NCBI GenBank assembly: GCA_010365215.1
Contig: JAAFGT010000006.1
Coordinates: forward strand, 1 to 64,000
Direction of reading: 5' to 3'
DNA: 64,000 nt
DNA from: Acidipila sp.
Lineage (GTDB): Bacteria; Acidobacteriota; Terriglobia; Acidiferrales; UBA7541
This document shows, piece by piece, positions 1,658 through 5,243 of the stretch (its first letter is position 1; each line of letters starts with the position of its first letter). The translations under genes were made by a program, and so were the position numbers. The notes beneath the pieces are model-generated. The model was given only the letters and a program-made list of their open reading frames with translations. It was not told the origin of the DNA and made no database searches.

Positions 1658-2509
1658 CTAGACGGTCTTGATGTTGCCGTTGAGACCGTTGGGGAAAAAG
1701 CCGCCCTTGTTGGTGCCGGGGGTGGCATTGCCGTAGACGATGGCGAGAACCTGGGAGGGAGTGCGCTTGATGGCCAGGGCATTCGAGTCCACGGGGAAAT
1801 AATGAGTCATGTCGGGGAGAACGTCCTGGGCGTCGAGTTTGAAGAGGCCGGGGACACTCTGCTGCACGACGTTGAGGCGAATGTTGCCGGCGTGGTAGGC
1901 CTCGGTGCCAAGAATTTGCGCGGCGGCTTGCAGGTTATTCCCGGTGAGCAGCGTGGCGGCTCCAGCGTAAGCGCTGACGCCGGTGTCTTCGAGGGCGCGT
2001 GAGGCCAGCAGGAAGAGAGGTTGCGTGTTGATGACGCCGAGAGCGTCGAGGTTGATCACGGGTTCGGCGACGGCCACGCCGCCGAGAGCGGAGCGGAGGA
2101 ATTTTACGTGGAGCGCTTCGTCCATGGCGATTTCAGTGGCGATGGCCTTGGTGGCGGCGTCGGTGAAGATAACTTGTGCGCCGCCGGTGGCCATGGCGGC
2201 GGAGCCGAGGGTGGAAGCGTCCAGGTAAACGCCGTTGACCGTTTTGCTGTAGAACTCCGCTTCGAGGTATTCGAGGTTGAGCGCGAAATTGAGGACATCC
2301 GTCTCGGGAATTCCCTGAGCGTGGCTGCGGGAATCGTCTGAGCATCCCTGAATTACGACGCCGGCGGCGAGGCCGGCTGAGGCCAAACCGACGTTTTTGA
2401 GAAAATTGCGGCGGGCGGAAGTTCTTTTTTCGCCGGCGGCGATTAGTTGACGTTTCGCTTCGGCGGGGTCAAGGAGCCCGTCGAAAGTTGGAGCTGGCTT
2501 GGTGGTCAT
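1658..2509 (-). CDS. Tat-exported ferritin-like domain protein
   Basis: This 283-residue protein belongs to the ferritin-like (Ferritin_2/desiccation-related) type. The N-terminal region carries a twin-arginine motif (SARRNFLKNVG, about residues 31-41), then a hydrophobic stretch and a lipobox-like IQGC, so export by Tat and lipid anchoring are likely. Metal-ligand candidates follow in helical segments: LNLEYLEAEFY, MDEALHVKFL, and later ALEDTG and LGTEAYHAGNIR. That E...ExxH...E...ExxH layout is what a carboxylate-bridged di-iron four-helix bundle needs. Iron storage or oxidative and desiccation protection is a family-based guess. An AGGAG site precedes the ATG. The upstream region carries the block shared with the two response-regulator genes. 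Confidence 0.85.
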   Translation of the reverse strand: MTTKPAPTFDGLLDPAEAKRQLIAAGEKRTSARRNFLKNVGLASAGLAAGVVIQGCSDDSRSHAQGIPETDVLNFALNLEYLEAEFYSKTVNGVYLDASTLGSAAMATGGAQVIFTDAATKAIATEIAMDEALHVKFLRSALGGVAVAEPVINLDALGVINTQPLFLLASRALEDTGVSAYAGAATLLTGNNLQAAAQILGTEAYHAGNIRLNVVQQSVPGLFKLDAQDVLPDMTHYFPVDSNALAIKRTPSQVLAIVYGNATPGTNKGGFFPNGLNGNIKTV

Positions 2510-2890
2510 TCACTCTCTCCTTTAATTTTTATTTAAATCTGCAAATTCAAATGTAAAGAAACAACCCACTTCAGACGTACGGAAGACCGGGGGTCACTGG
2601 ATGTCCGAAAGGCCTACAAAGCTGAAACTTTCTGTAGTTACCTCAGAGGAGGTCCGAACGCGGCCACAGCACCCACTTTTATAGTGCTGCAACCTTTATA
2701 AGGGAGTAAACAGACAGCAACCATACGTGGAATTTGGTAGGGGACTGTTGGGAAACACGTTAAACGGCTGTTGGAATTTGATTGACCCACTTGAGGAAAA
2801 CCTCGGGGACTCATTCAGGGCTGCCGCCGCCGATTGCTGCGGAGGCGGAGGCGAGGCGTGGTAACAGCTACCTGCTTAACTGGGGGCGTG
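2510..2890. other. Intergenic region of 381 bp with regulatory block
   Basis: I see no convincing gene in this stretch. It contains the leader of the ferritin-like gene, an inverted repeat CAGCAC/GTGCTG (2667-2672 and 2684-2689) and the first copy of a conserved block at 2693-2740. The part nearest 2890 is the 3' flank of the response regulator gene and shows nothing recognisable. Confidence 0.6.
2693..2740 (-). promoter_or_regulatory. Shared upstream block, copy 1 (ferritin-like gene)
   Basis: Read on the minus strand, the core CTACCAAATTCCACGTATGG (2740 to 2721) is followed 20 nt later by TATAAAGG (2700 to 2693), a possible -10. Copies 2 and 3 match at TAC, AATT and GTATGG in the same positions. 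The core is an imperfect dyad around AATT, as expected for a dimeric regulator. It lies about 210 nt before the ferritin-like start codon. Confidence 0.55.
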
Positions 2891-3262
2891 TCAGGCGACT
2901 GCCAGCAGGCGTTCGACTTGGCTGGCGAGAGCTCCACAGCCGCCAATTTTTGCGACTACAGCGTCGATGCCGGCGGCGGAAGCTTGCACCGGCGAAACCA
3001 CGTCGGCGTGCAGGGTAAAGAGAATAATGGGCACGCGGCTGCCGGTGGCGCGCAAGGCGCGTGCAGCCTCGAAGCCGTTCAAGCGGGGCATGGCCAAGTC
3101 CAGGATTACCAGATCGGGGGCGAGCTGACGTGCTTTTTCGACGGCTTCAACGCCGTCCGCTGCCTCGCCGCACACGGCGAATCCGGGCATGCTCTCGACC
3201 ACTTTGCGCGCCATCAATCGCATCTGCGCGCTATCATCAGCAATGAGAATCGACTTGGACAT
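2891..3262 (-). CDS. Single-domain response regulator (copy 1)
   Basis: This 123-residue protein is a stand-alone CheY-like receiver. It begins MSKSILIADD, giving the acidic pair at residues 9-10. The phospho-acceptor Asp lies in VILDLAMP near residue 54, the conserved Thr in ILFTLHAD, and the conserved Lys in AVVAKIGG. No output domain is present, so it probably acts by protein contact or as a phosphate relay or sink. It is closely similar to the next gene (3450-3818), which points to tandem duplication. No kinase is adjacent. The shared upstream block (copy 2) lies about 135 nt before its start. Confidence 0.9.
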   Translation of the reverse strand: MSKSILIADDSAQMRLMARKVVESMPGFAVCGEAADGVEAVEKARQLAPDLVILDLAMPRLNGFEAARALRATGSRVPIILFTLHADVVSPVQASAAGIDAVVAKIGGCGALASQVERLLAVA

Positions 3263-3369
3263 TCTCTCCCGTCTGCTTTCTACTCCGCACGACGGCCGGT
3301 TCGAGTCTCCAGGCCAAATCCCCGGGGAAGTCCAAGCGCCGCGAGAACAGTTGCTACCTCGTGCTACAG

Positions 3370-3417
3370 CCTTTATGAGGGAATGTACAGCCGTTAACCA
3401 TACTGGAAATTCGGTAC
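3370..3417 (-). promoter_or_regulatory. Shared upstream block, copy 2 (receiver gene 1)
   Basis: On the minus strand the core GTACCGAATTTCCAGTATGG (3417 to 3398) is followed, with the same 20-nt spacing as copy 1, by CATAAAGG. Similarity to copy 1 extends beyond the core into GTGCTACAGC on the gene-proximal side. Fifteen of 20 core positions match copy 1. Confidence 0.55.
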
Positions 3418-3449
3418 GGCACCTTAGACGGTTGACGGCGGGACGCCTG

Positions 3450-3818
3450 TCAGACAGCAGCGAGGAGGTGTTTGACCTGGGTCATGAGCCGTTCGACGCC
3501 CATTTTGGGAACGACCGCATCAATGCCGGCGTAAGAGATTTGCGCAGGTGAGATGAGGCTGTCATACCCGGTGAAGAGAATAATGGGCACGTGGCTGCCC
3601 GTGATTCTGAGGGCGCGCGCAGCGTCGAAGCCATTCATGTGCGGCATGGCCAGATCCATGATGACCAAATCGGGCTCGAGCTCGCGCGCCTTCTGGACTG
3701 CGTCGGCGCCGTCAACGGCCTCGGCGCAGACTACGCAACCGGGGATGGATTCGATTATCTTGCGCGTGGCTTTGCGTACTTCGCCGCGATCGTCCGCTAT
3801 CAGAACTGTTTTCGACAT
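3450..3818 (-). CDS. Single-domain response regulator (copy 2)
   Basis: The frame is open further upstream to 4007, but the protein clearly starts at the ATG at 3818 (MSKTVLIADD), matching its paralogue; the longer N-terminus has no receiver similarity. Length is 122 residues. The acidic pair is at residues 9-10, the phospho-acceptor Asp in VIMDLAMP near residue 54, Thr in ILFTGYD and Lys in AVVPKMG. There is no output domain and no adjacent kinase. An AGG lies about 6 nt before the start. Like its neighbour it has the conserved block upstream (copy 3). Confidence 0.88.
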   Translation of the reverse strand: MSKTVLIADDRGEVRKATRKIIESIPGCVVCAEAVDGADAVQKARELEPDLVIMDLAMPHMNGFDAARALRITGSHVPIILFTGYDSLISPAQISYAGIDAVVPKMGVERLMTQVKHLLAAV

Positions 3819-3862
3819 TGCACACCTGCCCGAGACGAGCGGGCCAATTCGTTGGCCAGGCG

Positions 3863-3919
3863 CCTCTATAAGCAGCTTGGCTGACTGGACGGGGCGCGGC
3901 CATACCGTGAATTGTGTAG
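3863..3919 (-). promoter_or_regulatory. Shared upstream block, copy 3 (receiver gene 2)
   Basis: On the minus strand the core CTACACAATTCACGGTATGG (3919 to 3900) keeps TAC, AATT and GTATGG at the same positions as the other two copies. A TATAGAGG follows after 29 nt rather than 20 nt. The core lies about 80 nt before the start of receiver gene 2. Confidence 0.5.
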
Positions 3920-4043
3920 AGAGGGCCGTGGGAAGCTTCACGCGGAGGCGTCGGCGAGCGTCTTTAAGAAGGGGAAACTTTACTCCCCCGGTGGCCTGCG
4001 CTAGCATCTCTCAGTTTTCACGACACCTGTTACGGAGGTTGGC

Positions 4044-5243
4044 ATGATTCCGTCCGTGAGGCGTTTTTCTTCTGGAAGGGCATGGTGGAATCACTACGCC
4101 ATGCTGTTGGGGGCTGCCGTGCTGTCGGGGTTGCTTGTTTTGGGACTGCAACCGCTGGGCGGCGCCGAGCCAGGACCATGGATGTTTGCCGTGTCGGGCG
4201 ACTCGCGCAACTGCGGGGACGTGGTGATGCCGGCGATCGCAACGAGCGTGTTAAGCCACAATCCGGCGTTCTACTGGCACCTCGGCGATTTCCGCAAAAT
4301 CTACGCGATCGATGAAGATATGAAACAGCAGCCACTCTATCGGGCGAGCGGGCTTACCGATGCGCAATATCAGGCGCATGCGTGGGAGGACTTTCTTAGG
4401 AGTCAGATCGATCCGTTTGGGGATCTTCGCGTTTATCTGGGAATTGGAAATCACGAACTTAATAATTTTCCCCAGACAAATCCAGAGGCGCCGGCAAACA
4501 CGGTGGGGCGGGCTAACTCGGCGATGCCGACACGAGGGTGGACGCGCGGGGAGTACTTGCGCGACTTTGACAGGTGGATGAACTGGCCCAATCTCGCCGC
4601 GCAGCGCGCCAAGGACAATCCTCGGGACCTAAAGCCGCGAACTTATTATCACTGGGTGGAACGCGGCGTGGATTTCATCAATCTGGACAACGCGAGTTCC
4701 GAGCAGTTTGACGAAGAGCAGATGAGATGGCTGGGAAAGGTGATCGATCGCGACCGCGTCGATCCCGCGGTGAAGGCGCTGGTGCTGGGCATGCACGCCG
4801 CATTGCCGGGCAGCATTTCCGCCGATCACAGCATGGAGCAGTCATCGGCAGGAATGCAGAGCGGCCGGCTGCTCTACTCCGACCTGCTGGCCCTGCATTA
4901 TGAAACGCACAAACCGGTGTACCTACTGGCCAGCCATTCGCACTTTTATATGGCAGGCATTTTCCGCACGGAATATTGGCGGCTGCACGGAGGAGTGCTG
5001 CCGGGATGGATCGTCGGGACGGCCGGTGCGCAGAGCTACGCTTTGCCGGGCACTCGAGGCGACGCGCTGGAAAGCCTGGAAAACACCTATGGTTATCTGG
5101 TGGGGACAGTGAGCGCTGGGGGCGAGATTACCTTCGCTTTCCAAAAGATCGAGGAGAAGGACGTCCCCAAGACCGTCTCCGAGATGTACACCGGAGGCTT
5201 TGTCCACACGTGCTTTGACGACAATACCCGAGTCGCGAAATGA
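4044..5243 (+). CDS. Exported calcineurin-like metallophosphoesterase
   Basis: This 399-residue protein has a single N-terminal hydrophobic segment (about residues 19-36), so it is exported or anchored with the catalytic part outside the cytoplasm. Metallophosphoesterase motifs follow in order: SGDSRN near residue 53, LGDFRK near 82, GNHE near 136, GMH near 249 and SHSHFY near 298. These are the usual two-metal ligand positions (GD-x, GD-xx, GNH[DE], H, HxH). The substrate cannot be read from sequence; phosphomonoesters, diesters or nucleotides are all possible. The start is supported by GGAGG 7 nt upstream. It faces away from the receiver genes and precedes the export locus without obvious link. 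Confidence 0.85.
   Translation: MIPSVRRFSSGRAWWNHYAMLLGAAVLSGLLVLGLQPLGGAEPGPWMFAVSGDSRNCGDVVMPAIATSVLSHNPAFYWHLGDFRKIYAIDEDMKQQPLYRASGLTDAQYQAHAWEDFLRSQIDPFGDLRVYLGIGNHELNNFPQTNPEAPANTVGRANSAMPTRGWTRGEYLRDFDRWMNWPNLAAQRAKDNPRDLKPRTYYHWVERGVDFINLDNASSEQFDEEQMRWLGKVIDRDRVDPAVKALVLGMHAALPGSISADHSMEQSSAGMQSGRLLYSDLLALHYETHKPVYLLASHSHFYMAGIFRTEYWRLHGGVLPGWIVGTAGAQSYALPGTRGDALESLENTYGYLVGTVSAGGEITFAFQKIEEKDVPKTVSEMYTGGFVHTCFDDNTRVAK

Follow-up and report, generated by a model that had tools for sequence, protein, structure and literature searches.

What are the similar blocks of DNA that lie upstream of three consecutive genes in an Acidipila genome, and which protein, if any, reads them all? The genes, one for a ferritin-like protein and two for single-domain receivers, lie in a 64,000-nucleotide stretch of contig JAAFGT010000006.1, here called the window. 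A preliminary description had assigned to each of them a 20-bp core, TAC-N2-AATT-N4-GTATGG, forming an imperfect dyad, with a second element after 20 nt in two copies and 29 nt in the third, and had proposed a single regulator or an unusual sigma factor for stress protection and signalling.

The three blocks and the genes behind them

Three exact copies of the core, designated A, B and C, do precede these genes (Table 1), although the core as defined spans 19 bp and not 20. It is an imperfect dyad as described, with perfectly matched outer arms, TAC-N10-GTA, in each copy. The exact pattern occurs three times in the whole 4.1-Mb genome, always at this locus and on the minus strand, with no scatter of matches inside genes; the one-mismatch version gives a single match genome-wide. 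Within the window, five matches with at most two mismatches, including the three exact ones, compare with 0.35 expected from shuffles. The full block taken literally (core, N21, ATAAAGG, with up to two mismatches) was absent from 100 relatives and found in its own genome only, and in that literal form the block is therefore local.

Table 1. Positions of the blocks, the genes behind them and the candidate regulator; all but the last line refer to the window.
Feature	Position	Strand	Remark
Dyad site A, TACCAAATTCCACGTATGG	2721-2739	-	Exact core match; 5' of ferritin-like gene
Dyad site B, TACCGAATTTCCAGTATGG	3398-3416	-	Exact core match; 5' of receiver 1
Dyad site C, TACACAATTCACGGTATGG	3900-3918	-	Exact core match; 5' of receiver 2
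-10-like element TATAAA, copy A	2695-2700	-	20 nt past dyad block
-10-like element CATAAA, copy B	3372-3377	-	20 nt past dyad block
-10-like element CAAGCT, copy C	3874-3879	-	In conserved 20-nt slot
TATAGAGG of copy C	3863-3870	-	29 nt from site C; alternative element of the preliminary description
Stretch TCCCTTATAAAGGTTGCAGCAC around -10 of copy A	2684-2705	-	86% identity to copy B 3361-3382; absent in C
Ferritin-like protein gene (PF13668)	1658-2509	-	Downstream of site A; candidate regulated gene
Receiver 1, single-domain response regulator, 123 aa (PF00072)	2891-3262	-	
Receiver 2, single-domain response regulator, 122 aa (PF00072)	3450-3818	-	62% identity to receiver 1
Candidate regulator, VraR/NarL-like response regulator, 218 aa	G000:C12:4771-5424		54-59% identity to receiver-operon regulators

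The ferritin-like protein begins with a twin-arginine-like RRNFLK followed by a lipobox-like VIQGC, and by this N-terminus resembles a Tat-exported lipoprotein. Orthologs of it are nearly absent from the family: among 60 genomes there was one (G009), degenerate and with internal stops, and phylogenetic footprinting through that single relative yielded no convincing site. Both receivers, by reading of their sequences, retain the aspartate, Thr and Lys of a phosphorylatable receiver, and neither has a DNA-binding domain. Three further close paralogs occur in the same genome, and many in relatives.

Could the blocks be functionless relics of a tandem duplication of upstream regions? Copies A and B share 22 bp around their -10-like elements, and the two receivers are paralogs. 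The ferritin gene and the receivers, however, are not homologous, while copies B and C, which do precede true paralogs, are little alike outside the core, and the stretch shared by A and B has no counterpart in C. The motif also stands before unrelated genes in other genomes, with controls near zero (see below). We consider a duplication relic extremely unlikely.

A family motif with a fixed downstream hexamer

In the upstream regions of receiver paralogs, read by eye, GTATTG recurs. De novo motif finding with no prior, fitting 20 columns to the 250 bp that precede each of 30 related receiver genes, returned TACAGnATTnnCTGTATTG / TACAgnATTnnCtGTATTg with a log-likelihood of 162, compared to 65-76 in shuffled sets. 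This family motif is a dyad, TAC-N10-GTA, whose strongest sites read TACAGG-N4-CCTGTA. Judged by sequence, the window cores belong to this looser motif as variants and are not a local oddity, and the exact core offered for genome-wide scanning is itself one such local variant. A matrix built from relatives only scored copy C at 23.0 bits, the top site of the window on both strands, copy B at 12.3 bits (rank 2) and copy A at 11.0 bits (rank 4); the maximum in the reversed control was 12.1 bits, so that A and B, at 11-12 bits, lie near it and near the best chance match. Copy C is on its matrix score secure by itself as a family-motif site, the sole clear match of the three. A and B fit the matrix weakly, and their assignment as motif sites draws on their exact core identity with C, their position before genes and their spacing. 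One further pattern, CTAC-N10-GTATTG, was tried on the genome and set aside, as it gave one match compared to seven in the control, and the central TT is thus needed.

Tabulation of the sequence downstream of the sites, which lay outside the motif fit, brought out a -10-like YAnnnT. It begins exactly 20 nt after the motif in 17 of 24 sites and occurs no more than three times at any other offset (binomial 6e-22). The 20-nt spacing described for two copies of the window holds, with TATAAAGG in copy A and CATAAAGG in copy B, although neither hexamer ends in the T of the family consensus. The 29-nt spacing of the third copy fared less well: TATAGAGG is present at that distance, but copy C has CAAGCT, which fits YAnnnT, in the 20-nt slot, so that the more distant element is not needed. 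In relatives YAnnnT is not enriched at offset 29, and TATAGAGG is probably not the functional -10.

This geometry bears on what kind of element the blocks may be. Motif bases 17-22 read TTGcct in the family and TGG... in the window; they stand 17 bp upstream of the -10, the position of a sigma70 -35, and the centre of the dyad lies 31 bp from the -10, at about -43.5 if transcription start positions are assumed, abutting the -35. With the same assumed starts, a site at fixed distance, centred between -41 and -45, is combined with a -10, as in class II activator-dependent sigma70 promoters. The best reading of the blocks would accordingly make them promoters of sigma70 type carrying a NarL-type, 7-2-7-like site near -43.5.

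Two other kinds of element were weighed against this architecture. Two conserved boxes at a fixed 20-nt distance look like a -35/-10 pair, and each block might thus be a promoter recognised by an unusual alternative sigma factor, the second proposal of the preliminary description. Such a regulon would show paired boxes without a dyad and a -10 unlike TAnnnT; here the upstream box is a 16-bp dyad, superfluous for recognition by a sigma factor, and the downstream box is an ordinary sigma70 TAnnnT with TTG-like bases 17 bp before it, which makes an unusual sigma factor very unlikely. The distance from block to start codon would also allow leaders of about 50-190 nt, in which the blocks would act as RNA rather than as promoter DNA. 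An Rfam search of positions 2500-4100 gave no match even at E 5, and the dyad, given the conserved -10 at a constant spacing from it, lies upstream of the transcript; the probability that we attach to RNA leaders is close to negligible.

Genes behind the motif in this genome and in relatives

A relaxed core, TACN4TTN4GTATKG, matches six times in the genome, compared to once for the reversed pattern. The six matches precede four receivers, the ferritin-like gene and one stress operon; those beyond the window lie before a receiver (C16), a receiver beside a HAMP-domain protein (C44) and an operon (C77) containing a Phage_holin_3_6 gene and a DUF3618-like gene. Across 89 genomes of the family, TACANNNTTNNNTGTATTG found nine matches and none in the control, and the relaxed core with its -10 found 33, compared to two in the control. 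A minority of these matches, with no convincing gene behind them or situated inside open frames, are probably chance.

The genes behind the family sites include signalling genes (receivers and MEDS-domain kinases) and genes for YtxH, DUF1328, Ysc84, DUF6496, YflT-like, DUF2934-HSP20, aldo-keto reductase and TPP enzyme proteins. Apart from DUF6496, the latter count together with the ferritin-like gene as unrelated protective functions that share a promoter, as in a general stress regulon. Of the two proposals in the preliminary description, the single regulator for stress and signalling genes is well supported: receiver, kinase and stress genes repeatedly have the motif upstream, both in this genome and in relatives, and control counts stay close to zero. 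The unusual sigma factor gives way to a dyad with a weak sigma70-type -10. From the genes found behind the motif, the three promoters of the window appear to be part of a signalling and stress-protection regulon present in part of this acidobacterial family.

Of the 59 stretches returned by a strict scan of 85,000 genomes, 14 belong to Acidobacteriota. Some matches outside that phylum fall in conserved coding sequence (Nostoc, Cloacimonadota), and the non-acidobacterial matches were left out of the evidence. In 396 genomes sampled across the whole phylum the strict consensus had no match, and the strict form is therefore not phylum-wide. On contigs of Thiobacillus, Sulfuricella and Ferrigenium, the strict dyad with its -10 stands before what is apparently one orthologous lytic-transglycosylase-like gene, and possibly the same gene follows such a site on a Desulfobacteraceae contig. 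These upstream sequences suggest a related site outside Acidobacteriota. In two genomes a strict-type core precedes an open reading frame resembling ribosomal protein S15, followed by polynucleotide phosphorylase, with no -10 at 20 nt; these cores possibly reflect chance or a separate use.

A candidate regulator and its relation to known systems

Eight Acidobacteriota contigs carry a common locus in which a strict site is followed by a single-domain receiver and then, where the regulator is readable, by a full NarL-type response regulator. The genome studied here has seven GerE-domain matches. One of them, the C12 regulator (Table 1), has a recognition helix (SVKTAETHR) nearly identical to that of the operon regulators (STKTVETHR), and its best relatives of solved structure are VraR, DevR and NarL, with VraR matching over its full length at E 2e-39. 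Sites occur in 21 of the 45 genomes that have a close ortholog of this regulator and in 4 of the 44 others (p 1e-4), and in one of those four exceptions (G035) the ortholog is cut by a contig end. The co-occurrence persists on stratification by genus (p 9e-4); in one genus (g4), sites are found in 9 of 11 regulator-positive genomes and in one of the nine others. Within 108 kb around 30 regulator orthologs there are 29 sites of at least 14 bits, compared to one in reversed sequence. Several of these sites immediately precede the regulator gene, and many follow it at once, in front of a receiver-like or YflT-like gene. In several relatives a conserved, divergent receiver-like gene, with a start like MKAPAINERTAAASHT, follows the regulator gene with the site in between.

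In its own genome the C12 regulator gene is not preceded by a site and has none nearby, and it does not lie near the three genes of the window; regulator-positive genomes often have no relaxed match. Many relatives have paralogs within the regulator family, and another member could accordingly read the site. A second NarL-type regulator (C45) was dropped as a candidate, with no site nearby and only 33-36% identity to the operon regulators. The C45 regulator stands in a row with a secreted ice-binding-like protein and with a receiver that shares 62% identity with receiver 1; no motif lies in the vicinity. By sequence similarity, co-occurrence and linkage, the C12 regulator is the best candidate reader of the sites, and the three blocks are probably read by one two-component response regulator.

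The model that we favor treats each block as a complete promoter-operator, with the centre of its 16-bp dyad some 31 bp before a weak -10 of sigma70 type (YAnnnT). A phosphorylated dimer of the NarL/FixJ family, of NarL/VraR type, would bind the dyad and recruit RNA polymerase in class II fashion from beside the -35, so that the ferritin-like gene and both receivers would be switched on separately but together. The HTH-less receivers may then feed back on the phosphorelay. That the output is activation rather than repression, and that the signal is stress, are both suppositions of the model. In the model as a whole, comprising the promoter-operator blocks, a NarL/FixJ-type activator, C12 as its best candidate and a shared regulon, we have moderate confidence.

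A shared operator might instead be read by a different protein, such as a NarL-type paralog other than C12 or a dyad-binding protein of TetR/GntR-like kind, and that protein might activate or repress. A site by itself does not name its protein, the genome has GerE-domain matches besides C12, including C45 beside a receiver paralog, and a dyad abutting the -35 could equally obstruct polymerase. Yet co-occurrence within genera, the sites around C12 orthologs and the receiver-regulator operons converge on one subfamily, and weak -35 and -10 elements suit activation better than repression. We regard a different reader as unlikely, though well worth keeping in mind.

The NarL heptamer is TACYYMT, a sequence that the inner bases of the family site do not fit. 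The outer triplets nevertheless resemble those of NarL 7-2-7 sites (PMC9314961, PMC2718512), being inverted TAC/GTA with 10 bp between them in all three copies and in the family consensus; the family site is, on this comparison, NarL-like in architecture and not a NarL site. The ogt1052 promoter of Escherichia coli needs no more than one NarL 7-2-7 site for induction, located at -44.5 and 32 bp from the -10 (PMC9314961). The promoters described here would resemble such class II-like NarL-dependent promoters in having a single site near -44 and a putative NarL/FixJ-family regulator, but the genes concerned are stress and signalling genes, not those of nitrate respiration. The candidate regulator is closer to VraR, the cell-wall stress regulator of Staphylococcus aureus (PDB 7ve6, 4gvp), than to NarL. 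VraR controls a cell-envelope regulon in Firmicutes, and the evidence for its likeness to the C12 regulator concerns the protein, not site or signal. In the alphaproteobacterial PhyR-NepR-EcfG response (Sphingomonas melonis, PMC5898713), several kinases and single-domain receivers form a two-component network that governs stress genes, as would be the case here, but the output there is an ECF sigma factor, in place of the DNA-binding regulator with a dyad site proposed here.

A search largely confined to open-access literature turned up no account of the motif or of any general stress regulon in Acidobacteriota. We tentatively raise a broader possibility, which we think somewhat doubtful: in part of the Acidobacteriota a NarL/VraR-type regulator may be the master of a general stress response, and the HTH-less receivers and MEDS kinases in its own regulon may provide phosphorelay and feedback. 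Such a system would be the two-component equivalent of PhyR-EcfG, with no sigma factor dedicated to it. The Acidobacteriota are little-studied bacteria with high abundance in soils, and a site, a regulon and a candidate regulator together would offer a handle on how they may control stress. The same three would allow many single-domain receivers and DUF genes to be annotated as components of a single response.
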